In this document: in pieces, positions 11,654 to 44,035 of the stretch
Layout: each line of letters opens with the position of its first letter
How positions within the stretch are numbered: position 1 is the stretch's first letter
Origin: a virus
Virus record (IMG/VR): IMGVR_UViG_3300002053_000020
Span: 1 to 55,574 of that record
DNA length: 55,574 bases
Direction: 5' to 3' (one strand)
Translations under genes and position numbers: made by a program
The notes under the pieces: model-generated
What the model was told of the DNA's origin: nothing
Databases searched by the model: none
What the model saw: only the letters and a program-made list of their open reading frames with translations

Positions 11654-14600
11654 ATGGCAACTTCCCTCTACAAAACTTCCAACCAAGCCGGTTCTGAAGT
11701 TCGACGTAGGGGGAAGGGGATCTCCACTGGTGAATACAAACCGGGCGACTTTGTTCAGAAAGTAACTGGACAAGAGTACGTCCCGGGGCGTATTGCTAGT
11801 GAGGCAATAGGTGAAGACTACCGTCCGGGTGTGCTCGCTGATCGTGCTCTGCAAGAACCCCTTCCTTCCGCTACTCGCCGCCGTGGTATCACACCACCCC
11901 CTTCAGGCGAAGCTCCGACCACCACTTCCAGATATCAAACCGACGCAGAAGAACTAGCTGCGTGGAAAAAATCCCGAGGCATTACCGACACTCCCCCTGC
12001 TCAGGATTCGTCACGTCCATTGGAAGGCGATTTCTTTGGCGATGCGGCTAAAGACTTGGCTGCTGGCGGAGTTCAGCTTGTCAAGGGCGTGTATGAGATC
12101 GGCAACTTGGTTAGTGGAGGGGCGCTGGATGAGGCAATCAAAGCCCGCACCGGAAGCACAGGAACCGAGAATCTTGCCGAAGGCGTTCAGCAGATCAGGG
12201 AGAGTCAATCCCCTGCGCTACAGGCTCAGCGTAAAGAACTGGAAGATACCAAGGGATTCGTGGACAGCTTCAGTACCGTCCTAGCCAACCCTCGTCTTGC
12301 CGGTTCTATGCTGGTTGAGATGGTTCCGCAGCTTGCTACCGTTGGTCTTGCTGCCCGTGCCGCCGCTGTCCGGACAATCGAGTACGCGCTAAGCCGTGGG
12401 CTGTCGATGGAAGCCGCATCAGCTATGGCTACGACCAATGCTACCCGGGTGGCGATCGGTGCTAACGCTGTCATGGAGGGCACCGCTGCTGGCTCCGACG
12501 CTCGTCAGTCAATCTTGTCAATGAAACAAGAAGAGCTGGACAAGTCTCCCCAATATCAGAAGCTCCTGAAGGAGTTGGGCGATCCAGGTCTGGCGCGGCT
12601 GAAGCTGGCTAACGATGCGTCCGTGGTTTCTACCGCCTTGGCTGGCTCGATCTCCGCTCTGCTGGGCAAGGTCACTGGTGCCGGTAAGCTGGAAGCTCAG
12701 GTCTTGGGCCGAGTCACTGATGTCTCAGAGAAGGCTGTGGCTGACGCTGCCAAGAAGGGAGTCGTTCGCCGCACTGGTGAAGGCTTCCTGAAAGAGGCTG
12801 CGCAAGAGTCCGGGGAAGAGGGTGGATCTACCTTCTCCTCAAACGTGGGCGCATTCGCGTCAGGAGCCCGCCCAGAGCAAGATCTCCTTGAGGGTGTACC
12901 GGAAGCTGCCGGAGCTGCTGCTGCCGTTGGCGGCGTTTCTGGTGGCTTTATGGGGGCTATTGGTGGGCCTAAAGGAAAGCCGGGAGATACGGAATCAAAG
13001 CCCGGAGAATCCGGAACGACCCCTCCTACGCCCGGAAAAGAGTTCCGTCCTAGAACCCTAGCGGCTGTAGAGATGGTATCCGCGGTCAGGGATCAGGGCC
13101 TCATGGCGTACATGTACTCTGTTGGAGACGACGCTACCAAGGCACAACTCCGCGCTGCCAACCCCGGTCTGGACTTGGATCAACTTTCTAAGGATGTGGA
13201 TCTGGTCAACGCCGGTAAGCGCATTGCTACCCAAGCTCCGGGATTTGTCGGTCAGGTTGCCGCGCAGCTTGAGGGTTTTGATCTTGAGGCTGCAACCCTA
13301 GAAGCTGCTGAGACTAAGACTGCCGGTGGGATCTCTGGCATTATCCGGGCGAGCGAACTGGCAAAGACTATTGCCGAAGAGCGTGCCCAAGGCATTACTG
13401 ACGAGAAGATCCAGCAAGCCGAGACAGGTGAGACTGCTGTTGTTGCCCCTCGTCGTGAGCCTCTGAGCCAAGAAGATCAGGATATCCGCATCCGTGGCTA
13501 TGAGCGTCTGGTTCGTAACCTGTCGGTCTATCCAGAGAACTACCGCGTCACCCGTGCTGAGCAGATCATCCGGGACATGACAGATCAGGGCTACCCACCG
13601 GAACTTATAAGTGCCACTGTTGCCCCGATTTTGGAACCTACAGCTCTCGATATTGGTACTCAGTGGGAGCAGAACATTCCTGATGGTATCGAAGACCCAG
13701 ACCTTGACGCACTTGATGCTGAGATGGCTGATGTCGAATCCCAGCTTGGGACTAACGAGGTAGGCCTGCCGCCGGTTCCTAATGAGCCAGCCATTGTCGA
13801 AGGCCCGACCTCGGCTGAAGCTGACATGGCTCAGATGGAAGCTCCTGTTGCCACAGATCAGACCCTTGAACAGCCAATGTCTTTCGACGAGGTTCGCGCC
13901 GGGATGTCTCGTTATGATTACGGCAAGACAAATGACCCTGAGAATTTAGACGAAAGCCTGTACGTTCAGACTGAGGTGCCGCCAGCGTTCCAAGCTATTG
14001 CCAAAGCATTCGGCATGAAGATCTATGGCGTGAAGTACATGGGTTCGAACGAGCGCACACGGAATCGTCAGGGCCTGTCGCTTGGCCGTAATACAATTGT
14101 TTTGAACTTTGCTCAGGCCAAGAGGCGTAATCAGCTGCACATCTTGGGGCATGAGCTGTATCACGAACTTCGCCGCCGCAACCCAGAAGCAGCGCTGAAG
14201 CTTGAGCAAGAAGTCAAAGCTTTCTTAGATAGCAATAAGTCAAGAGAGTTCCGCAAGAAGTTGTCATCTGTAGGGTATGCCCCGTCGGATATAGACAACG
14301 AGATGACTGCTGACATTATGGGCTTTCTGTTTACTGACAAAGCCTTCTGGGAGCAGGTTGGTCAGAACAATCCATCCCTGCTACAGCGCATCATCCGTGT
14401 CTTGGATGACCTGATTGCACGATACAACGAGCTTGGTCTTCGTGAGCAGATGGCTAAGGATATGGTGGCAGACCTTGATGGCCTCAGGACTTTGCTCGTC
14501 AAGTTTGTTGATCAGCATAAGATCGAAGCTGCCGGCAATCTAGAAATCGCACAGAGCGTTGACTTCGACCCAGATCAGAACGAAGCCCTCATTAAGATCC

Positions 14601-17600
14601 GCTCCCTTATCCGGGATGGCAAGACTCTTGAGGCATCGAAGATCTTCAAGGAGCAGGGTTTCTTCCGCGAGTACGGCCTGAAGTTCAACGAGATTGTGGC
14701 CGACGAAGAAGCAAAAGCCGCTCAGGGTGACACTCGTGCTGATGCTGAGGTTATAGCTGAGAACGAGGCGTACATCAAACGTCAGCGTAAATTATGGAGT
14801 GAAGATCCTAATATTACGCCGCCCGCACAAGAGGAGCAAGAGGTACAGCTCCGTCGCCCACAGGAGGAGATTGACGCTGAGAATGCCTACGCTGCAACTC
14901 AGCAGATCTTTGACTTGTTGCGTCGCGAACAAGTTGCCCAAGCCGCCAAGGTATTCCGCGAGTCCAACCTTGCCGCCTTCGGGGAGAACTTCGTCGATCT
15001 GCAAAAGATCATCCAAGACGAGCGCACCAAGCGGGTATCCGAAGCTCAGTTCAAGACTGACGAGCAGAAGAGACTTGCCCTGACATCGAAGAGACGCGGC
15101 TACGATAAGCGCGTTGACAAATTGATGAGCGGGATCTCCAAGAAGATTGAGGAGCAAATCGCCCAGAGAAAAGCAACTGCAATAGCCGAGGCCAAAGAAG
15201 CAAAACGCAGGGCAGCAGACAAGAAAGCTGCTGAAATTGGCGGCATGGAAGAAGAGCGCGGCATACTGGATAACGACGTTGGTGGCGTGTTTACCCAGAT
15301 GGCTGTGGCTGGCATGTATGGCGGAGAAGAAGCCCAGATACAGGCGCAAGCAAAGCTAGATGCAATGCAAGGGGAGCGTCAGGTTGATGAGCGTGGACAA
15401 GAGCAGGGGTACAAAACAAAGTCAGATATGCTTGTTGAAGAACAGGCTGCAATCATGTCTGGTCGCGTCCGCACTCTGGTCTACACCGCAGATCGGAACC
15501 TAGCAGAGCTAGCCAAGATCCGAGAAGAGATGGCCAAAGAGGGTTATGAGCCATACCTGATCGAGCAGACCGTTGCTAAGGCAGAGCGCCAACTGCGTGA
15601 GCTTCGTGACGCTGAGCTTGCTGATCTGGTTCGTGCCCAACTGAAGGACACGGCGCAGCAAGTTGACGCAATGAAGGTCTCGAAGGTTGAGCCAGAGATT
15701 TACCCTGCACTTGAGGGTATTCAGGCTGAGCTTGACCTCAATGATGAACAGCGCACTGATGCTCGTCGCTTGGCTGAAGCAATGGCTGGGAAGGACGAGA
15801 TAGACGAGGAGACCGGCGAAGTCAAGAAGCGCGAGAAGATGACATTCGCTGAGGCTATCAGGGCTATCCGTGAGAATGACATTGGCCTGAAGCACCTTTA
15901 CGATCAGATGCGTAGCCTTGGCATGGAGATCAAGAAGGAATACATCGACATGTCAGGCAACGTGTCGGCCAACCACAAGCTGAACGATTGGGTAAAGAAG
16001 TTCCCATCCTCCGCTATGTGGGCGCGTCACGCTTGGTTCAAGTCGTATGAAGCATTGCCTGTCAAAGGTATGGTGCAGCTCACCGCTGGAGAGAAAGTCT
16101 CTTACGACAACTGGCAAAAGAAGATGCGCGAACTACGCACTCGTCGGTTTGAGCAAGAACCGGGCAGAGGGCTTTCGTTCATGAGTCTTGAGCAAGCATT
16201 CCCTAACGCTCTGTTCATGAACTACACCCTGAACGAGATGCGCAATCCTGACCGCATGAATCCTGAAGATGCTGTATTTATCAGGGAGATCTCAGAAGAT
16301 CCAGTACGTTCGTGGATGTTGGATATCAAGTCTGCTATTCAGGCACGTCCAGATCTTGAGCCTCAACTGTCTCAATACCTGACTGCTGACGAGATGACTG
16401 CATGGAAAGAGTTCCGCGCCCGTGAATTCCGCGAGGCTCAGCGCAACATCGAGATGAAGATGCGCTCTCCGGTTTACAGTCAACTTGACAGTCTGCGCTA
16501 CCTGTCTCCTGAGGTATACATGAATTACCGCAAGGAGATTGCAACCGCGGAGGAGGCTCAGCTCGCCAAGATCTTGCAGAATGCGTTCGAAGTTAACGAA
16601 TTAGCAAGAGAGGCTATTGAGTCAGGATATGATGTTGGTCAGACCATTGGCGAACTGATGGACGAAAGGGCTCAGGAGGACGAGCGTGCCTCTGTGTCTG
16701 CTGACGTTATGGATCTCGAAGCCAAGTACGATACAGATGGCAACGAGATTGTGCCAGATGAGAGCATCACCTTTGAGCGCATTGAGAATTCTGGCGCGAT
16801 GCCCGGTATGAACATCAATGAGGCACTAGAAACTGCGTTCGCTAAGTGGGATGTGCCGCCTCAGTACACGGTGGTACAAAACCTGAACCAGTTGCCTGAC
16901 GATGTTCGTGCTCGGTTGACCCAGCGTTTCGGTGCTACAGGATTCCAAGGTGCACTTGATCCAAAGACGGGACATATCTACATCCTGTCAGACTTCCACA
17001 CGAATCCGGAAGATGCCAAGTTCACAATGTTCCACGAATTGTACGGACATTGGGGGCTTCGTGCGTTCTTGGGTGACAAGCTGGACGACTTCCTGAACAC
17101 TCAGTACAGACTGAACCAGAAAGTACGCAAGGCTACTGATGCACTCAAGGCCAAGGCTGATGAGATGGGGCAACCTATGTCTCAGTCGGAAGCTATCGAA
17201 GAAGCAATCGCGGATATGGCTGCGGCTGGTGACACTGGCGCATTCCATACCTTGATCGGTAAGCTGATTCGCTGGCTCAAGGCACATGGGTTTGAGAACG
17301 TAGCTAAGTGGCTGGATGGTTCTGGTGATGTCGAACTAGCAACAGTACTGCAAGGTGCCCGTGACGCTGCTCGCAATCAGGGGATCTCTCCGCTTGCTGG
17401 CGCACCGATGGAGGTGATGTATAACCGTGCAAAGGATCAGCCGGTTGAAGCCTACGCTTACCGTGATGGCAACATTACTGCGTACGCTCGGATGAATCCT
17501 GTGACCGGACGCTGGACTGTGTTCACGATTAACCCGGGCGCAACCAGCATCATTGACGGTGACTACAACATCACCGATGCCGACACCCTGCAAGTGGCTC

Positions 17601-20600
17601 ATGACATCCTGAAGCAGAAGGGAACTGTCAAGGTAGCCAAGGCACGGGAGACGCTGGCTTACATCGGCCCAGATCAGGTTGTCAAGATTGCATCTCCTTT
17701 GCAAGACAATCCTTCTACTTGGAACCGCTTCAAGCGTTGGGTGGTTACTGGTGCTCAGAACCAGTTCCTCCCAATCTTCGAGGTGGCATCTCAGTTGGCT
17801 CGGGCTGGCAAGGACATTACCGTAATCGATGATCTGATCAAGTACGAGGCTCGCACTGGTTACTTCATTCAGGACTATCAGCGCCGTATCCTCAACCCGA
17901 TCATGAAGAGCCTGAGAAAGCTCGGTGAGATGGACTTGTCGATCGAGGACGTTGACCTGTACCTGATGGCTCGTCATGCAGAAGAGCGCAACGATATGAT
18001 CAAGGCTGTCACTTCTGGCAAGAACAAGAAGGGCTCAGGCATGACATCAGCCGAAGCTAAAGCAGCCCTGAAAAAGTTTGAAGCTAATCCAGAAGCATTG
18101 GCTGAGCTAAGAAAGATTGCTGCGCTGACTGATCAACTGAGCAAAGACAAGCTGGCGTACATGTTGCAGAACGGCATGATCACCAAGTTCCAGTTCGAGT
18201 CGCTGCGCAATGGTTACAAGCACTACGTCAATCTGTCTGGCAACAAGGAGACTGATCTCGACAAGTACGATGGTTCTCAGTTGGGCGGTCGTGCCTTCAA
18301 TGTCCGCGGCTCCGATGTGATTCGCTCAACAGGTCGTGGCACACAGGCTGTGGATGTTCTCGAAAACACCCTGAATGCCTACGTTGCTACATTGATCCGA
18401 GGCCAGAAGAACCGTGTGCTGAACGCAATCCTCAGTATGTTCGAGCAAAACCCTGACAAGACATACGTCGAGGTGAACCCGATCGATACCATGAAGCGCA
18501 TCGACGTGGATCGATTTAACTTTGACAACAAAGTGCTTGCTGCTCTGGGTACGGACAAGCCTACGCAACAGGCTGGTCGCAACTTCTTGGTTGGCCTAAA
18601 GCAGATGATGGAGCGTGGCGAGATTAGTTCGGATGACGCATTGGCTGCTGTGGTTGAGCGCATCCGTCTTGCCGAAGAGCGTCGTGATCTTCAGCCTGAT
18701 GAGGCGGCACGGGCTATCCGCAACCTGAATGAGGAAGTTGTCTTTGAGTCAAGGCTAAACCCTGATGGATACGTCACCACAGTTGAGACGCAAGCTCGTA
18801 ATCCTCAGTCCGTCACCGTCAAGGTAAACGGCAGAAGCGTCGAGATGGTGTTCAACAACCGTTCGGGCGACTTCTTCCAAGCAATCACCGGCATGAACGT
18901 GCAGAAGTCAAGCGCGATGTTCGAGGCTCTTGGCGCATGGAGTAGGTTCTTCAGCCAGATGGTGACTACTTGGAACCCTGCTTGGATTCCGATCAACATG
19001 CTGCGAGACATTCAGACAGCTATCGCTAACATGGCGGCTGATCCAGAGGTTGGCGCTGTATTGGCTGGGAAGATGCTGAAGGAGTATAGAAAGTCTACCG
19101 CTCTGGCGTTCCGCTACATGGTGAAAGACTACGCTGGCGCTAAGGACGGTCGCTTCCGTGATTGGCTTGACAGGATCACAACTAAGTACCCATTGTCCTA
19201 TGAGGATGCCAAGTTGATCGAAGAGTTCTATCAGGATGGTGGCGCCACGTTCTTCCTCGATCGTGACAATATAGATCTAAGCCTAGAGAAATTGAATCGG
19301 GCTATGAAGAAGGACACCGGAACGGTCGCATGGACTAAGGACAAGTTGGATTCCTTCGCCGCCACGATGGACTTGCTTTCTATGCCGACTGAGATTGCTC
19401 CACGACTAGCTGTATACAAGGCTCTTCGTGAGGCAGGTAAGTCCCGCGAGTTTGCGGCTCGGTACGCCAAAGAGCTGACCGTCAACTTCAACATGAAGGG
19501 CAGCAGCAGGGAACTGAGAGCAGCGTATGTGTTCTTCAACCCCGCTGTCCAAGGCACGGTGCGTTTGTTCAAGGATTTCCAAGCTGGCAACTACGGTCGG
19601 TTCGCTTCGGTGGCTGGATTCTGGATGGGCATGGGGTACTTGGCAACTTTGGCTGCCCGCGCATTTGGAGACGACGACGAGGAAGAGCGTCCGGGTGTAG
19701 ATAGCATTGACATGATCGCACCCTACAAGCGCAACACCACGTTGACTTGGTTGCCCGGTGTAACTGGCGGCAGTATTCCGATTGCCTATGGCTGGAACGT
19801 CTTTGCCGCGGCTGGTAGCTACATGTACGATGTGATAACTGGTCGCATGCCAGCTGGTCACGCCGCTATGGAAACTATGAAGGCTGCGTTCGATGCGTTC
19901 TCTCCGATCGGATCTGGCGCTGAGTCCAAGACGGTAAGCGGCACAATCCTGAAAACCATCACTCCTAGTGCTGTTGTTCCAATTGTTGAACTAGCAATGA
20001 ACGAGAACAGGTTCGGTGCCCCGATCTTCAAGGAGCAGAGCCCATACTCCAACGTCGAAGAGGCGAATGCGTACATGCACTTCAACTCTGTAAACCCGAT
20101 GTCGAAGTGGGCAATGCAGCGTCTTGCTGAGGTAGGTGCCGGCGGTAAGAATGCTCGGTACTCGCCCGGTCTGCTGGACGTTAACCCCGGCGCTGTCGAT
20201 CACATGATCAATAGCTATCTGCCCGGTGTGTTCTCTGAAGTCTACAAGGCAACAGGTCTGGCAATCACGAAGGCACAGGGGTATGAAGTGTCTAGGGAGC
20301 AGCCGGTACCATTGTTGGGTAGGTTCAAGGCAGAGGTGCAGGAAGATAAGTTCGACCAAGCCGCTGACCGCAGACTGCGAGCCAAGATTGATACGCTATG
20401 GAAAGCTTGGGAAGCCCCCGATACAACTGATGCTGAAAGAGATCAGATGATCAAGGACTATCCAGACTTCCCGAGCATCAAGGGATTGATACAGGGTCAC
20501 GAGAATCAAATCAAGTCTATGCGCCAGACACTCTCAGCTTTCGAAAGAGACCCGAAAATGTCTGACGAAGCCAAGGTTGATTTCCGTAACCATGTCAATG

Positions 20601-20683
20601 CAATGGAGAAGCAGTATCGGAAGGAAGCTGTTCAAGCCGCCCTCCGAAGCAACCTCCGCAACGTCATTGTTGGGAACGAGTAG
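11654..20683 (+). CDS. giant polyvalent internal virion protein with two zinc-peptidase-like motifs (3009 aa)
   Basis: Single uninterrupted frame of 9 kb. The first 120 residues are low-complexity and carry repeats such as GEYKPGDF and GEDYRPGVL. Residues 130-280 and 400-440 contain hydrophobic or Gly-rich stretches. A zincin-like segment follows with HELYH (H833-H837) preceded by hydrophobic strands. Residues 1000-1400 are charged coiled coil. A second site is FHELYGHWG (H1794, H1799; HExxxH) in a large-polyvalent-protein-like domain. Near the C-terminus WNPAWIPINMLRD (about 2440) and VNFNMKGS (2610) resemble the LPD38-type polyvalent-associated domain, followed by hydrophobic helices (about 2650-2740). 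It is probably ejected with the DNA and may process host or virion proteins on entry. It converges on the - strand gene with a 20-bp overlap. Confidence 0.8.
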   Translation: MATSLYKTSNQAGSEVRRRGKGISTGEYKPGDFVQKVTGQEYVPGRIASEAIGEDYRPGVLADRALQEPLPSATRRRGITPPPSGEAPTTTSRYQTDAEELAAWKKSRGITDTPPAQDSSRPLEGDFFGDAAKDLAAGGVQLVKGVYEIGNLVSGGALDEAIKARTGSTGTENLAEGVQQIRESQSPALQAQRKELEDTKGFVDSFSTVLANPRLAGSMLVEMVPQLATVGLAARAAAVRTIEYALSRGLSMEAASAMATTNATRVAIGANAVMEGTAAGSDARQSILSMKQEELDKSPQYQKLLKELGDPGLARLKLANDASVVSTALAGSISALLGKVTGAGKLEAQVLGRVTDVSEKAVADAAKKGVVRRTGEGFLKEAAQESGEEGGSTFSSNVGAFASGARPEQDLLEGVPEAAGAAAAVGGVSGGFMGAIGGPKGKPGDTESKPGESGTTPPTPGKEFRPRTLAAVEMVSAVRDQGLMAYMYSVGDDATKAQLRAANPGLDLDQLSKDVDLVNAGKRIATQAPGFVGQVAAQLEGFDLEAATLEAAETKTAGGISGIIRASELAKTIAEERAQGITDEKIQQAETGETAVVAPRREPLSQEDQDIRIRGYERLVRNLSVYPENYRVTRAEQIIRDMTDQGYPPELISATVAPILEPTALDIGTQWEQNIPDGIEDPDLDALDAEMADVESQLGTNEVGLPPVPNEPAIVEGPTSAEADMAQMEAPVATDQTLEQPMSFDEVRAGMSRYDYGKTNDPENLDESLYVQTEVPPAFQAIAKAFGMKIYGVKYMGSNERTRNRQGLSLGRNTIVLNFAQAKRRNQLHILGHELYHELRRRNPEAALKLEQEVKAFLDSNKSREFRKKLSSVGYAPSDIDNEMTADIMGFLFTDKAFWEQVGQNNPSLLQRIIRVLDDLIARYNELGLREQMAKDMVADLDGLRTLLVKFVDQHKIEAAGNLEIAQSVDFDPDQNEALIKIRSLIRDGKTLEASKIFKEQGFFREYGLKFNEIVADEEAKAAQGDTRADAEVIAENEAYIKRQRKLWSEDPNITPPAQEEQEVQLRRPQEEIDAENAYAATQQIFDLLRREQVAQAAKVFRESNLAAFGENFVDLQKIIQDERTKRVSEAQFKTDEQKRLALTSKRRGYDKRVDKLMSGISKKIEEQIAQRKATAIAEAKEAKRRAADKKAAEIGGMEEERGILDNDVGGVFTQMAVAGMYGGEEAQIQAQAKLDAMQGERQVDERGQEQGYKTKSDMLVEEQAAIMSGRVRTLVYTADRNLAELAKIREEMAKEGYEPYLIEQTVAKAERQLRELRDAELADLVRAQLKDTAQQVDAMKVSKVEPEIYPALEGIQAELDLNDEQRTDARRLAEAMAGKDEIDEETGEVKKREKMTFAEAIRAIRENDIGLKHLYDQMRSLGMEIKKEYIDMSGNVSANHKLNDWVKKFPSSAMWARHAWFKSYEALPVKGMVQLTAGEKVSYDNWQKKMRELRTRRFEQEPGRGLSFMSLEQAFPNALFMNYTLNEMRNPDRMNPEDAVFIREISEDPVRSWMLDIKSAIQARPDLEPQLSQYLTADEMTAWKEFRAREFREAQRNIEMKMRSPVYSQLDSLRYLSPEVYMNYRKEIATAEEAQLAKILQNAFEVNELAREAIESGYDVGQTIGELMDERAQEDERASVSADVMDLEAKYDTDGNEIVPDESITFERIENSGAMPGMNINEALETAFAKWDVPPQYTVVQNLNQLPDDVRARLTQRFGATGFQGALDPKTGHIYILSDFHTNPEDAKFTMFHELYGHWGLRAFLGDKLDDFLNTQYRLNQKVRKATDALKAKADEMGQPMSQSEAIEEAIADMAAAGDTGAFHTLIGKLIRWLKAHGFENVAKWLDGSGDVELATVLQGARDAARNQGISPLAGAPMEVMYNRAKDQPVEAYAYRDGNITAYARMNPVTGRWTVFTINPGATSIIDGDYNITDADTLQVAHDILKQKGTVKVAKARETLAYIGPDQVVKIASPLQDNPSTWNRFKRWVVTGAQNQFLPIFEVASQLARAGKDITVIDDLIKYEARTGYFIQDYQRRILNPIMKSLRKLGEMDLSIEDVDLYLMARHAEERNDMIKAVTSGKNKKGSGMTSAEAKAALKKFEANPEALAELRKIAALTDQLSKDKLAYMLQNGMITKFQFESLRNGYKHYVNLSGNKETDLDKYDGSQLGGRAFNVRGSDVIRSTGRGTQAVDVLENTLNAYVATLIRGQKNRVLNAILSMFEQNPDKTYVEVNPIDTMKRIDVDRFNFDNKVLAALGTDKPTQQAGRNFLVGLKQMMERGEISSDDALAAVVERIRLAEERRDLQPDEAARAIRNLNEEVVFESRLNPDGYVTTVETQARNPQSVTVKVNGRSVEMVFNNRSGDFFQAITGMNVQKSSAMFEALGAWSRFFSQMVTTWNPAWIPINMLRDIQTAIANMAADPEVGAVLAGKMLKEYRKSTALAFRYMVKDYAGAKDGRFRDWLDRITTKYPLSYEDAKLIEEFYQDGGATFFLDRDNIDLSLEKLNRAMKKDTGTVAWTKDKLDSFAATMDLLSMPTEIAPRLAVYKALREAGKSREFAARYAKELTVNFNMKGSSRELRAAYVFFNPAVQGTVRLFKDFQAGNYGRFASVAGFWMGMGYLATLAARAFGDDDEEERPGVDSIDMIAPYKRNTTLTWLPGVTGGSIPIAYGWNVFAAAGSYMYDVITGRMPAGHAAMETMKAAFDAFSPIGSGAESKTVSGTILKTITPSAVVPIVELAMNENRFGAPIFKEQSPYSNVEEANAYMHFNSVNPMSKWAMQRLAEVGAGGKNARYSPGLLDVNPGAVDHMINSYLPGVFSEVYKATGLAITKAQGYEVSREQPVPLLGRFKAEVQEDKFDQAADRRLRAKIDTLWKAWEAPDTTDAERDQMIKDYPDFPSIKGLIQGHENQIKSMRQTLSAFERDPKMSDEAKVDFRNHVNAMEKQYRKEAVQAALRSNLRNVIVGNE

Positions 20684-25107: not shown

Positions 25108-25194
25108 TGGTGGAGGGGGCAGGATTCGAACCTGCACGGAACTAGCCGACCACGGAGTTACAGTCCGGTGCCCTTCCTACGAGGCGTCCCCTCC
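25108..25194 (-). tRNA. tRNA-Tyr (GTA)
   Basis: An 87-nt class II tRNA on the - strand. Acceptor stem GGAGGGG pairs with CCCCTCC, with discriminator A and an encoded CCA. The anticodon loop CTGTAAC gives GTA. There is a long variable arm, as expected for bacterial tRNA-Tyr. The T arm is GCAGG-TTCGAAT-CCTGC. It is embedded between the structured leader stretch (25195-25449) and the Gp49-like gene, so it is presumably excised from the early leftward transcript. Confidence 0.95.
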
Positions 25195-31884: not shown

Positions 31885-32202
31885 AGAAGACAACTGCTCG
31901 ATCTTCTTTTTCAATTGCCTAGCTGATTGCCACTTAGCATTAGCAACTCTGATGTTATGTGTTGCTTCTGGCGATCGCTTCGTGCCAAAGTCTGATCGAC
32001 GCTTCTTCCGAGGCGAGATCACACGACCAAGCTTATCCTCTCGCCTAGTCTCTTTGGTCATCACCACCTTTTGCTCGATGCTGACAGGCGCTTTGGCTTT
32101 GCGAGGATTGCGCTTTGCCTTAGTCTGAAGGTTCATCTTCTCAAGCTCTTCCTTGATTACCTGCACCATGAGTTTCTTGAATGCTATGTCAAGTGTAGTC
32201 AC
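31882..32202 (-). CDS. lysine/arginine-rich hypothetical protein (106 aa)
   Basis: GTG start coupled to the upstream stop (GTGA) with GGAGAAAGTGTC. The product is strongly basic (KAKRNPRKAKAP, SPRKKRRSDFGTKRSPE, RQLKKKIEQL). It probably binds nucleic acid non-specifically. No family seen. It is the last gene of the accessory operon. Confidence 0.6.
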   Translation of the reverse strand: MTTLDIAFKKLMVQVIKEELEKMNLQTKAKRNPRKAKAPVSIEQKVVMTKETRREDKLGRVISPRKKRRSDFGTKRSPEATHNIRVANAKWQSARQLKKKIEQLSS

Positions 32203-32612
32203 GACACTTTCTCCATGAAGATTGAATTTGAACGCCCAGTTTCCGCGATTACTTTACGGATTCTTGGTACTAGGCCACGTTTACGAGCAATGTTAGCAAG
32301 CAGACAAGCTCGCCAGTTATTGCTCGACAAAGAGTTTGATACACGGACTCGGATGGCTTCCCACTGAACCATAGTCATCATGATGAGAAGCTCGGATGGT
32401 TTGGGAGCGCTCAGGTGGTCATTGGCAAATACGCCAACCAAACGCTTACTATCATTGCGGCTTTGACCTATCGACCATCCAGCCTCAGCACTCTCGTCCG
32501 TCATGCACTCGGCTACTCTTACGCCGTTGGTAAGCCAGTACTCTATGTTTCGCTTATTTAAAACTACCTCCGAAGCATATCGGTCTAAGTGCCTAGTCAT
32601 CTTATTGCACAT
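32199..32612 (-). CDS. hypothetical protein (137 aa)
   Basis: I start it at ATG 32612 (AAAGGAG nine bases upstream) rather than inside the amidotransferase gene. The first part is basic (CNKMTRHLDRYASEVVLNKRN) and a central stretch has hydrophobic pairs (SELLIMMTMVQWEAIRVRV). It is immediately downstream of the amidotransferase-like gene and overlaps it by 11 bp, so it may be part of the same pathway. No domain recognised. Confidence 0.6.
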   Translation of the reverse strand: MCNKMTRHLDRYASEVVLNKRNIEYWLTNGVRVAECMTDESAEAGWSIGQSRNDSKRLVGVFANDHLSAPKPSELLIMMTMVQWEAIRVRVSNSLSSNNWRACLLANIARKRGLVPRIRKVIAETGRSNSIFMEKVS

Positions 32613-33891
32613 AGCTATGGACTCCTTTCGATGTATTAGGTTTAGTAATATCTGCCATCTCAAGCAGCAGCTCTTCGTTCTCTTCCCACATGTCAACGAT
32701 AGCGTCGGCACCCCACTCAGCATCGGTGGCAACACGGTCGCTGATAACTTCTGAAGACCACTTGCTATTCGGGCCTTCATCACCATACAGTTCGTATAGC
32801 AAAGCAGCGCACTTCATTGGGTTCTCGCTGACCCAGCGCACGACACCGTGATAATCTTCGGTCATCATTGCGTTGTAGCAAGAACGGATGATGCGAGCAA
32901 GAACTTCCGTGGATACAAACGGAGAAGCCACTTGACCAGCGTTTGCTTTTGCCTTGGCAACCTTCTGCGCTTCGGTCATGGTGCGGGCTTGGCGAGCAGC
33001 ATTGCCTTTGCCTTTTGCGTTTGGCCTCTTCTTGTTGCGCTTGGTCTTGTTTCTTTGGCTAGCTGATTTACGATCATATTCCAAGGCTTGTTGATACCGC
33101 TGATAAGAGTCCTTGGTTTTCTCATCAGCCAGCGTAGAGGGGGAAACATATCCATCAGCTTCCCAAGCACCGACATCATCATCCACGTCATTCCACAGTT
33201 GCCATGATTTGCTCGAACCGTAGTGATGCTTCTTGCTTGGCGATGTGCTGGCAATCGTCGCCGTGCTAGTAGGATACAGGCTGTGACCTGTGCCAGAGTA
33301 GTAAGACTTCGGAGCACCCCCATAGCCAAACTTCCAAGGAGTCCAAGCATAAGTGTTGGAATACCAGATGCCATCGTACACAACGCCAGCATGCTTGTTC
33401 ACGATAAAGACATTACCCTTGGAATCCATCAAGCCGAACTTGTTTGATGAGCCGATGTGCGAGCCAATGTAGCCGCGTATATATGGATTTGCCAGAGCGT
33501 CTGGTGTTTGCTCCAGCATAGGCTTGATGAAGTCTTTGATGTAGTGCCAAGTGTCAGACATCTTGGGGTTCTCTTTGTTGCCGTAGCTCAGGATACCGTT
33601 GTGAGCCAGCCAAACTTCATCCTTGATAACTTCGTAAGGATGGCAGTTCTCCATGTCGATGTCGCCGTGAGTCTTCATGCGGAAGTGGATGATCGCCTCA
33701 TAGCAAGCAACCTTGTCGTAGTACAGGTCTTCGATTTCTCCCAGTGTGCCAACAGCTTTGTAGACTACGACACCGCGCTCGTCACCATGATTGACGATTG
33801 CGCCGAAACCGTCTGAGTTCTTGGAGTAGAAGTCCTTGAGTTGCTCGGAGGAAAAGCACGCGTCCTTTGGATGATGGATTAAGATGCACAT
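32602..33891 (-). CDS. class II glutamine amidotransferase-like (Ntn hydrolase) protein
   Basis: A 429-residue protein beginning Met-Cys, so Met removal would expose a catalytic N-terminal Cys. The class II set is complete: NSDGFGAIV (25-33), HFRMKTHG (Arg71), ENCHPYEV (His84), WLAHNGIL (Asn98-Gly99) and KMSDTWHY (Asp113). These match the positions of the GlmS/PurF glutaminase domain. The C-terminal half (after about 190) is low-complexity, basic, then a helical domain. Such domains release ammonia from glutamine or act on gamma-glutamyl bonds. The amidoligase gene lies 50 bp upstream. AAAGGAA precedes the start. Confidence 0.82.
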   Translation of the reverse strand: MCILIHHPKDACFSSEQLKDFYSKNSDGFGAIVNHGDERGVVVYKAVGTLGEIEDLYYDKVACYEAIIHFRMKTHGDIDMENCHPYEVIKDEVWLAHNGILSYGNKENPKMSDTWHYIKDFIKPMLEQTPDALANPYIRGYIGSHIGSSNKFGLMDSKGNVFIVNKHAGVVYDGIWYSNTYAWTPWKFGYGGAPKSYYSGTGHSLYPTSTATIASTSPSKKHHYGSSKSWQLWNDVDDDVGAWEADGYVSPSTLADEKTKDSYQRYQQALEYDRKSASQRNKTKRNKKRPNAKGKGNAARQARTMTEAQKVAKAKANAGQVASPFVSTEVLARIIRSCYNAMMTEDYHGVVRWVSENPMKCAALLYELYGDEGPNSKWSSEVISDRVATDAEWGADAIVDMWEENEELLLEMADITKPNTSKGVHSYVQ

Positions 33892-33941
33892 TAGTTAGTT
33901 CCTTTCTGATTGGTTTGTAATTAAATTTTTCAAACTGAAGA

Positions 33942-35528
33942 CTAAGCTGCTTCGCGTTCGTTCGCTGCATGATCGCCTCCGATTGCTAGATAGCTACGAA
34001 GGTTCTTTGTGTCTACTCGATTAGGTGGTAGCTGAATCCATGACTTGTAGCCGTCAGCGTGGAAGTTACTGAGTGACACCGAGCCGGGAGTGCAGAACGT
34101 CATGAGTGAGTTAACAAACTCTAACGCTGCCATCACTGATTCGTAGCGTAATGAACCACGGAATATCCTGAACTCTACCGTTTCTACATTGGTAATATTC
34201 AGGGCCTCGTAACGGTCGGTGCTATGTTTATTGATGACAGTAAACTTAGCAAGCTCTCGTTTGATGCGGGAGTAACCGTTGTCGTAGCGCCGAGCGATCG
34301 AACGAATCAGTTGCTCATTGCGGGAGTCATTGAGGAATGCTTGCATCCGGTAGATCTGAGCCTGTGTAAGGAACTCTCTGCCGACATGAATATGCAAACC
34401 GCAAGCTCCGCCCTCATGTGAACGCAAGCCTTTCTTCAGCGCAGGATTCAGAAGGAACTTGCCCATCCTCTCCCTGTGTATGTCAAGGCCTGCTGGTTGG
34501 GTAACTATCTCGAAGCCTTCGCCAATAGAACCGTCGCGCTCGAAGAAGCAATACTCGCCAAGCTCAAAAGTATTATGATTCAAAGCCTCATGAACAGTGG
34601 CAAGCTTCTTCTGAGTAGTATCGGTATTAGATCTGCACTGAACCTCTAGCTCCATGCCAAAAGCTCTGCGGTTCTGCTTGAACCATGGGCTAGTGATAAT
34701 GTCAAAGCCACGCTGACGTGAGCTATGATAGTTGCCAAGAAGATCGCCGTATGGTTGCCAGTGAATATCTGTGTAGATCTCACGACCACGATGAGTGCGC
34801 TGCGTAAAGTGCGGGTTACGTCGATCGCCAATGTACCTACGTTCTGCGTAGCCATAAATATCTACTGCGAATTCGTAAAGAATCAATGAACTATCAGCGG
34901 CTTGTATACGTTGGAGCTCTCCCGGGGCATTCATAGCAGCTTGGGCACACTCACGGCACACATACTCAGTATGGTCGTAAGTTCTTGCGTTACCTTGGAA
35001 TCGTACACGGCGTGAGCTTTCTTCCCAATGACCGCAAGACTGAAGGGCTAGACCATAAGACTCAGCGAACTTCTCAACGTAGATAAGATTCTGCTGACGT
35101 GAGTCAACTCGTTCGTCATTGTCTCCGTTCTTGATCTTCTCATGCCAGATACTTACAGTCAGGCCAAGATGAGGATTGCCATTGCGTGTGTTGACATTGA
35201 TGCCAGACTTGATTATGTCCATCATGAACCGGAATCGAGGCAAGCCAAGCGATGATGCTCTGCCAAAATCGCATGCCATTTTGATAAATTCATCTGCAAA
35301 TTTATCGGCATAGACTCTATCTATGATTGCTTCATATGTTAGCTGAATGATAAAGAACCACTTGTTCTTTGGTAGATTGCCGCCAGTGCTGCGGCACAAA
35401 GAGTTAAAGGCTTTCGCCGCGTACTTCTTGAATACGATACGGTCAATGTCATCGTACTCATCTTTATCTGCATGCTTAAGCAGATGCAGATGCAGGTTGT
35501 GAACCGTTTGCATTGATGTTGTTGTCAT
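33942..35528 (-). CDS. amidoligase (Amidoligase_2, COOH-NH2 ligase fold) with N-terminal Zn finger
   Basis: A 528-residue protein. Residues 1-160 are a helical region. C165GHW...C191REC194 forms a probable zinc finger. From 285 the amidoligase core is clear: FGMELEVQ (E293, E295), ERDGSI (330-335) with GFEIVTQP, GLHIHVGREF (377-386), and VEFRIFRGSL (451-460). This is the glutamine-synthetase/GCS-like ATP-dependent ligase pattern. The family forms amide or isopeptide bonds on peptides or small molecules. Adjacent to the amidotransferase-like gene, as reported for other amidoligase neighbourhoods (Iyer, Aravind and co-workers). Substrate unknown. Confidence 0.85.
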   Translation of the reverse strand: MTTTSMQTVHNLHLHLLKHADKDEYDDIDRIVFKKYAAKAFNSLCRSTGGNLPKNKWFFIIQLTYEAIIDRVYADKFADEFIKMACDFGRASSLGLPRFRFMMDIIKSGINVNTRNGNPHLGLTVSIWHEKIKNGDNDERVDSRQQNLIYVEKFAESYGLALQSCGHWEESSRRVRFQGNARTYDHTEYVCRECAQAAMNAPGELQRIQAADSSLILYEFAVDIYGYAERRYIGDRRNPHFTQRTHRGREIYTDIHWQPYGDLLGNYHSSRQRGFDIITSPWFKQNRRAFGMELEVQCRSNTDTTQKKLATVHEALNHNTFELGEYCFFERDGSIGEGFEIVTQPAGLDIHRERMGKFLLNPALKKGLRSHEGGACGLHIHVGREFLTQAQIYRMQAFLNDSRNEQLIRSIARRYDNGYSRIKRELAKFTVINKHSTDRYEALNITNVETVEFRIFRGSLRYESVMAALEFVNSLMTFCTPGSVSLSNFHADGYKSWIQLPPNRVDTKNLRSYLAIGGDHAANEREAA

Positions 35529-35886
35529 GCTTCTTCTCCTTCGGGAATGGGATCTTGGTATACGAACCTATCGAGCTGCTCTTCGACATGAACTTCTGAT
35601 CCAGTGCTCGGATAGTTGCGTGATTGAAAACAATGTTCATTAGGGTGCGGACAACTACATCGACCGAGCCCCAATCATCTTGCAAGTCTTCCGATTCAAC
35701 GTCGTCGTAGTAACTGTAGTAACCACGACTTGTCTCGACGCTACAGATGTACACTTCCTCATCATCATAGCTGCACTGAACGCCAAGCTCGTTACGCAGG
35801 AAGTCTCGTACTCGACGTGCATGCTGACTACTTCCGTTAGGCATGAACGCTTGAGCCCAATGCCTAGCTCTAGTTACTGTCGTCAT
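35476..35886 (-). CDS. hypothetical protein upstream of the amidoligase (136 aa)
   Basis: Ribosome site AAGGAG. The product has a helical basic start (ARHWAQAFMPNGSSQHARRVRDFLRNEL), an acidic Tyr-rich middle (SRGYYSYYDDVESEDLQDDW) and a Lys/Asn/Ser-rich tail. It overlaps the amidoligase start by 53 bp, so the two are co-translated. It could be the peptide substrate or an adaptor of the amidoligase; that is speculation from position. No family recognised. Confidence 0.6.
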   Translation of the reverse strand: MTTVTRARHWAQAFMPNGSSQHARRVRDFLRNELGVQCSYDDEEVYICSVETSRGYYSYYDDVESEDLQDDWGSVDVVVRTLMNIVFNHATIRALDQKFMSKSSSIGSYTKIPFPKEKKHDNNINANGSQPASASA

Positions 35887-43501: not shown

Positions 43502-43576
43502 GGCGGGATAGCTCAGGGGTAGAGCAGAGGGCTCATAATTCTCAGGTCACTGGTTCAAATCCAGTTCCCGCAACCA
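43502..43576 (+). tRNA. tRNA with CAT anticodon (Met or Ile2)
   Basis: 75 nt with encoded CCA. The anticodon loop is CTCATAA. T arm ACTGG-TTCAAAT-CCAGT. Acceptor GGCGGGA pairs with TCCCGCA except the first pair (G1-A72), an unpaired end that resembles initiator tRNAs. The D stem is elongator-like (GCTC/GAGC). It may be tRNA-Met, or tRNA-Ile if C34 is changed to lysidine. Confidence 0.9.
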
Positions 43577-43829
43577 GTCACAGAGTCAAGCTAAGGCAAC
43601 GCAGACATACTGACATCCAGCCTATCGAAGAAGCTCACTACAGATGTCGAGGTCGGGATTCCCGGGGAGAGTCATTGATACTCCATGATCCGGAAATAAA
43701 CCTTGGAAACCCGTGCGGCTAGGATCTAGAGCCTAGTGCCTTAGCCCCTTTACTATGGCCAGCGCCGTGCGGTAATGAAGATGACTAAGGGATCACGGAC
43801 TCCCAGATTCTAAGCCATAGACCTTTTAT
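43577..43829 (+). other. non-coding segment between tRNAs, foldable
   Basis: About 250 bases without a gene. Visible helices include GACAT/ATGTC, GAGT/ACTC, GGC-TAGG/CCTA-GCC (region 43718-43742) and GGGA/TCCC. No T-loop sequence is present, so I do not see another tRNA. It may be an unknown RNA co-transcribed with the tRNAs. Confidence 0.4.
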
Positions 43830-43880
43830 GCCCCCTGCTCCACCTACTTTGAGATTGGTGTGACCGGGGGGCTTTTCTTT
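43830..43880 (+). terminator. terminator-like hairpin within the tRNA cluster
   Basis: GCCCCC (43830-43835) pairs with GGGGGC (43867-43872), with an inner CACC/GGTG helix, followed by TTTTCTTT. It would end the tRNA-CAT transcript before tRNA-Trp. Confidence 0.6.
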
Positions 43881-43884
43881 CTAC

Positions 43885-43958
43885 TACTCATTGGTGTAAC
43901 AGCAGCATTGCAGTCTCCAAAACTGTTGGCGGGGGTGCAAATCCCTCATGAGTAGCCA
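43885..43958 (+). tRNA. tRNA-Trp (CCA), atypical
   Basis: 74 nt with encoded CCA. Acceptor TACTCAT/ATGAGTA is perfect. Anticodon stem GCAGT/ACTGT closes loop CTCCAAA. Deviations: the T loop reads TGCAAAT (G at position 55 instead of U), and the short D loop AACAGCA lacks the usual GG. It could be a degenerate but functional tRNA. Confidence 0.75.
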
Positions 43959-43959
43959 T

Positions 43960-44035
43960 TGCAAGGTAGCTCAGTTGGCAGAGCAACTCCCTGTTAAGGA
44001 GAAGTGCGTAGGTTCGAAGCCTGCCCTTGCAGCCA
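43960..44035 (+). tRNA. tRNA-Asn (GTT)
   Basis: 76 nt with encoded CCA. Acceptor TGCAAGG/CCTTGCA, D stem GCTC/GAGC, anticodon loop CTGTTAA, T arm with TTCGAAG. Canonical. It starts two bases after the end of tRNA-Trp. Confidence 0.95.

Follow-up and report, generated by a model that had tools for sequence, protein, structure and literature searches.

The window, by which we mean the whole stretch of DNA that was analysed, is a virus record of 55,574 bases. Towards the 3' end of an operon on the minus strand, it carries a gene for an Amidoligase_2 protein (AL) and, directly after it, a gene for a class II (Ntn) glutamine amidotransferase (GAT), and this operon is convergent with a plus-strand operon that contains primase and helicase genes. 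GAT begins 50 nt downstream of AL, in agreement with the spacing given in the original prediction, and small genes lie on either side of the pair (Table 1).

Table 1. Features at the AL-GAT locus of the window
Feature	Length	Position	Strand	Basis or remark
Small basic downstream ORF	106 aa	31882-32202	-	Last operon gene before the convergent replication genes
Small downstream ORF	137 aa	32199-32612	-	Overlaps the end of GAT
GAT, class II (Ntn) glutamine amidotransferase	429 aa	32602-33891	-	ORF call and Pfam profile
AL-GAT spacer	50 nt	33892-33941	-	Likely GAT ribosome-binding site (AGAAAGGAAC)
AL, Amidoligase_2 protein	528 aa	33942-35528	-	ORF call and Pfam profile
Upstream small gene, cluster c22	136 aa	35476-35886	-	AL start overlapped by ~50 nt
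Tail motif IGSYTKIPFPK of the c22 protein		35539-35571	-	
Small upstream protein, cluster c12	135 aa	35870-36277	-	Same operon; 16 loci of the lineage
Upstream gene, cluster c20	66 aa	36246-36446	-	Same operon; 12 loci of the lineage

The best match of the window's portal protein is that of Rhizobium phage RHph_TM3_14A (36%), followed by Roseobacter CRP and Pelagibacter phages, with Puniceispirillum phages also among the matches, and the same AL-GAT pair is present on larger related contigs of 52-59 kb. Phages of the HMO-2011 type are recognised by portal similarity and a genome of about 53-61 kb; the window has both. It is a podovirus of this type, and its amidoligase-GAT module is of a minimal form, with two genes.

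The window also contains four tRNA genes (Met, Trp, Asn and Tyr; 43502-44035 on the plus strand and 25108-25194 on the minus strand) and a protein of 3009 aa (11654-20683, plus strand) that bears an LPD38 ("large polyvalent protein") domain close to its C-terminus and whose first 982 aa have no match among 50,697 phage records. Other window proteins match MazG, an NrdR-like Zn ribbon, a D-alanyl-D-alanine carboxypeptidase-type protein and Surface-adhesin protein E. Promoter and terminator scans returned signals at chance level only, and a PADLOC search for known defence systems returned two weak, chance-level matches (E 0.015), neither of them to AL.

Predicted folds and active sites

Both family assignments of the original prediction hold, since each protein scores above its Pfam cut-off: AL reaches 27.8 bits against Amidoligase_2 (PF12224; cut-off 22), its best-matching stretch covering positions 161-244 of the 245 in the model, and GAT lies just above the cut-off for GATase_4 (23.1 bits against 23). 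The PHROGs found on AL are phrog_16683 and phrog_2443 ("amidoligase enzyme").

AL is laid out as an all-helical N-terminal region (~1-157), a Zn-binding motif with the putative ligands C165, H167, C191 and C194, and a ligase domain (~285-515) which is predicted from the structure model to have the glutamine synthetase (GS) fold. The model has a pLDDT of 84, and its top match in the PDB is the glutamine synthetase 5dm3, followed by Dop and the Pup ligase PafA; the probability of the top match is 1.00 but TM-scores are low (0.2-0.3), in part owing to the additional N-terminal domains of the query. The conserved residues of AL (ExE, E, HxH and ExR) we take to correspond to GS catalytic positions. 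A sequence search of the PDB with AL gave a single match, to a ribosomal entry, which was dismissed as chance.

The original prediction had treated the zinc finger as an extra N-terminal fusion, a view that comparison with relatives contradicts. The motif was found in 100/100 viral amidoligases, in 73/77 bacterial ones and in 4/5 named ones, counting those with a recognisable core, or about 97% of the family, and it is kept in Marvin, MEP402, ctgrD200, AciJM_313 and the Clostridial amidoligases. C165, C191 and C194 are conserved at 96%, and distant relatives have CxxC...CxxC. As judged from these alignments, the putative Zn-binding motif is a trait of the whole amidoligase family.

GAT consists of a glutaminase (Ntn) domain (1-185), which is predicted with confidence, a disordered linker (~192-305) and a helical domain (~326-415) that is conserved among close relatives. 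The low-complexity C-terminus described in the original prediction therefore exists as the linker, but the protein then continues into this conserved domain. A cysteine follows the start methionine and becomes N-terminal once the methionine is removed, an arginine and an aspartate are in place for glutamine, and an Asn-Gly pair for the oxyanion hole; by these features GAT is a predicted class II glutamine amidotransferase whose active site is intact. The structure model of GAT matches GlmS (1xff, E 3e-6) ahead of EgtC, and the GlmS glutaminase domain also ranks best when the sequence profile of GAT is compared with the PDB, where matches to amyloid entries were set aside as falling over the low-complexity linker. 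Structure prediction of each enzyme, which had been proposed as a check, thus gives a GS-like AL and a GlmS-like GAT.

Linkage and shared inheritance of the pair

When viral contigs and bacterial genomes were scanned, more than 180 related loci came to light, a set in which some overlap. By alignment scan and GAT profile, GAT lies directly downstream of AL on the same strand in all 76 of the usable viral loci, and by GAT profile it does so in at least 57 of 75 bacterial loci, mostly from Clostridia; the bacterial count is a lower bound because the two loci scanned among the 18 misses (L041 and L036) have a GATase beside AL that the profile overlooked. The median gap between the genes is 27 nt in viruses and 1 nt in bacteria. 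No third gene is shared as widely as AL and GAT among the loci compared, and a Clostridial candidate (~190 aa, +2.2 kb), considered as a gamma-glutamyl cyclotransferase, was rejected when its representatives proved to be resolvases.

Dereplication at 10% distance left 85 AL-GAT pairs, in which ten positions of GAT and fourteen of AL were checked. GAT C2, H69, R71, T74, G76, H84, N98, G99 and D113 are invariant in 85/85 pairs, H75 being the only position checked that is not, and so are the GxExE, D332, S334, E340, HxH, R414, N444, T450 and ExR residues of AL. The catalytic set named for GAT in the original prediction (N-terminal Cys, Arg71, His84, Asn98-Gly99 and Asp113) is included here in full; that prediction had staked itself on the retention of catalytic residues and on co-occurrence of the two genes in relatives, and both are found.

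The distance matrices of AL and GAT are correlated (r = 0.91 overall, 0.88 within viruses and 0.92 within bacteria), and the correlation exceeds that of all 2000 shuffles, although it is no proof of a physical complex, because operons inherited whole also correlate.

The pair is common in gut Clostridia, and 40 of the 80 loci L030-L109 (Clostridia and others) have a resolvase-type cluster gene nearby, which suggests that the pair rides on mobile elements. A locus from Brachyspira (L091) has two amidoligases beside two GATase-like genes.

Possible reactions and substrates

Our preferred reading, to which we give a tentative probability of roughly 0.4, is that AL and GAT make up a glutamine-dependent, amide-forming module of two enzymes, probably co-transcribed, in which GAT supplies ammonia to the GS-fold AL. 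The N-terminal cysteine of GAT would hydrolyse glutamine to give ammonia, and AL would convert a carboxylate to its activated acyl phosphate at the cost of ATP, then form an amide with the ammonia from GAT (or with another amine). The N-terminal part of AL, with its helices and putative Zn site, and the C-terminal helical domain of GAT may serve in docking of the two enzymes or in binding of the target. The pair probably modifies some host molecule, most likely a small molecule or a peptide; an existing proposal is that the target could be a cell-envelope peptide, with protection from competing phages as the result, and if this is true the pair would exclude superinfecting phages by enzymatic means. 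The literature searched names no substrate for phage amidoligase-GAT modules. Where a class II GAT domain feeds a synthase, the two are as a rule parts of one protein with a tunnel, and AL would not require a dedicated ammonia supplier, since glutamine synthetases use free ammonia. Physical coupling of AL and GAT, ammonia as their shared intermediate and any choice of substrate are what we infer.

The intact glutamine pocket of GAT equally fits the cleavage of a gamma-glutamyl amide, as in EgtC. AL could join the gamma-carboxyl of glutamate to an amine, as EgtA and PuuA do, and GAT could later cut the gamma-glutamyl amide, so that the glutamyl group would serve as a protecting or carrier group with no free ammonia involved. 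We regard such a cycle, the leading alternative to amidation, as possible, at odds well short of even; if it is true, the phage bears a glutamyl-conjugation pathway. EgtC hydrolyses a gamma-glutamyl amide and has a GS-fold ligase as its partner, and both ergothioneine synthesis (EgtA/EgtC) and polyamine metabolism (PuuA/PuuD) combine a GS-fold ligase with a hydrolase of the glutamine amidotransferase type. EgtC is among the closest folds to GAT, which it resembles, R71 and D113, the residues that hold the glutamyl part, are kept, and the larger phage modules of phiM6, StenR_269 and UFV-P2 carry a gamma-glutamyl cyclotransferase, which also acts on gamma-glutamyl amides. However, a search for such a cyclotransferase (PF06094) came up empty in the window and in 8 relatives, while control genomes were positive, and by sequence profile GAT lies closer to GlmS, which is a true glutaminase, than it does to EgtC. 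The two-gene form also shows no amine-processing enzyme that would act between ligation and hydrolysis, and the ligase family of EgtA and PuuA differs from that of AL; the gamma-glutamyl chemistry is theirs, and only a candidate for the pair in the window.

The small flanking genes had been put forward as possible peptide substrates. The overlapping genes exist as described, and the c22 and c12 genes upstream are conserved in relatives, but the 137-aa downstream ORF is only weakly so, with a 26% identical ORF in one relative; the C-terminal half of the 106-aa ORF is similar in two relatives. Cluster c22 recurs in 12 loci of the window's phage lineage, and the 12 aligned members share the C-terminal tail [VI]GxxTxxPFPK despite a variable body. 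Proteins with the PFPK tail are found at L002, L003, L012-L017 and L019-L021, and L006:4911 has a similar tail, on an ORF that lies 1.1 kb upstream of AL there. In several relatives the tail motif begins ~120 nt ahead of the AL start, and since motif and AL start do not overlap in these members, overlap alone does not explain the conservation. Among the neighbours, the tail is the single oddity in which substrate or docking information might lie.

That AL conjugates or amidates the c22 protein, or recognises its tail in the manner of PafA, is nevertheless very unlikely, even with PafA and Dop among the nearest folds to AL. The c22 gene is missing at most loci that have the AL-GAT pair, including the named phages and the bacterial loci checked; its protein has no match among 50,697 phage records, no match was found for either of the two upstream small proteins tested against phage records, and none of the c20, c12 and c22 proteins clusters with genes of the bacterial loci. 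Since the flanking small proteins are limited to the window's phage lineage, they are unpromising as a general substrate and were rejected in that role. Pupylation involves a conserved C-terminal Gly-Gly-Glu/Gln, whereas the upstream protein ends in the PFPK tail and variable last residues, with no conserved terminal Glu or Gln. A full tagging system, evolutionarily separate from pupylation, in which AL would conjugate or amidate the VGxxTxxPFPK-tailed protein and GAT would act as nitrogen source or reverser, seems highly improbable.

It is very unlikely that the target of the Zn-binding AL is phage DNA or tRNA, modified with nitrogen from GAT to withstand restriction or cleavage. The Zn-binding motif is present in nearly all AL proteins, the convergent operon has replication genes, and the modules of MEP402 and phiM6 adjoin primase or helicase genes; class II GAT domains also occur in phage 7-deazaguanine pathways. 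The Pfam families listed for 81 window proteins (25 of the 29 families matched), however, include no QueC, FolE, QueD or other base-modification enzyme, and a 7-deazaguanine pathway was rejected, none of its genes appearing among these families. A Zn motif fits protein or ligand binding equally well, and the pair is found in phages and bacterial loci whose gene content otherwise differs.

Lastly, AL and GAT might be neighbours by shared inheritance only and catalyse separate reactions, as vertical inheritance of an operon alone yields correlated trees and the divergent AL of Clostridioides phage AR1086-1 adjoins a nucleotidyltransferase-like gene and not GAT, but this is highly improbable given an adjacency that spans mycobacteriophages, OM43 phages, an Acinetobacter phage, HMO-2011-type phages and Clostridia, with different surrounding genes.

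Comparison with known modules

The pair had been proposed as an undescribed system, which it is not: it is annotated in Marvin-like mycobacteriophages, in MEP402 and in Acinetobacter phage AciJM_313, and larger versions, with a proposed cell-wall role, are described in phiM6 and LUZ24-like phages. A further case is MurT/GatD, in which MurT belongs to the Mur ligases and GatD to the class I GATs. This system of peptidoglycan amidation (PMC3267633) likewise combines a ligase with a glutaminase and makes amides on cell-wall peptides, but it is an analogue only.

Modules of this kind in phages have been on record since at least 2009. As cited in PMC10580990, Iyer et al. 2009 described such a module in phiEco32 and proposed a cell-wall modification against superinfection; their module is also cited in PMC6256558. 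The adjacent amidoligase and class II GAT that define it in these secondary accounts are both present in the window. PMC10580990 reports an amidoligase (PF12224) and a GATase (PF13522) in MEP401, MEP402 and more than 30 other genomes, where they are discussed as auxiliary metabolic genes, and also cites the Marvin paper.

In Marvin (gp105-gp106) and Marvin-like phages, an amidoligase with the Zn motif is likewise followed by an adjacent class II GAT in the same order, although identity to the window proteins is only 26-30%, the phage type is different and there is no PFPK-tail protein upstream. The OM43 (Methylophilales) phages MEP401 and MEP402 and the podovirus ctgrD200 also have AL and GAT adjacent, close to primase and helicase genes in MEP402; their proteins are 30-40% identical to those of the window, with a shorter GAT that lacks the long linker, and their flanking genes are different.

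The modules of phiM6, PA11, phiRIO-1, the LUZ24-like phages (UFV-P2 and tf) and StenR_269 likewise combine Amidoligase_2 with a class II GAT. In UFV-P2, ORF23 is the amidoligase and ORF25 the glutamine amidotransferase (PMC3890496). The HMO-2011-related podovirus phiM6 has a peptide-bond module of 7 ORFs, proposed to modify host peptidoglycan (PMC6256558). These modules also include an ATP-grasp protein, a gamma-glutamyl cyclotransferase and sometimes a COOH-NH2 ligase and a second GAT, and they have other genes between AL and GAT, which are adjacent in the window. In tblastn searches the ATP-grasp proteins of phiM6 and StenR_269 had no match in the window, and the two also miss each other; the COOH-NH2 ligase profile (PF14395) matched nothing anywhere, the controls, phiM6 among them, being silent as well. 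The amidoligase-GAT module is therefore of a kind already described, and the window is a new, minimal two-gene example of it. With active sites that are invariant in 85 pairs from phages and Clostridia, this natural two-gene form is the simplest version in which the reaction could be measured.
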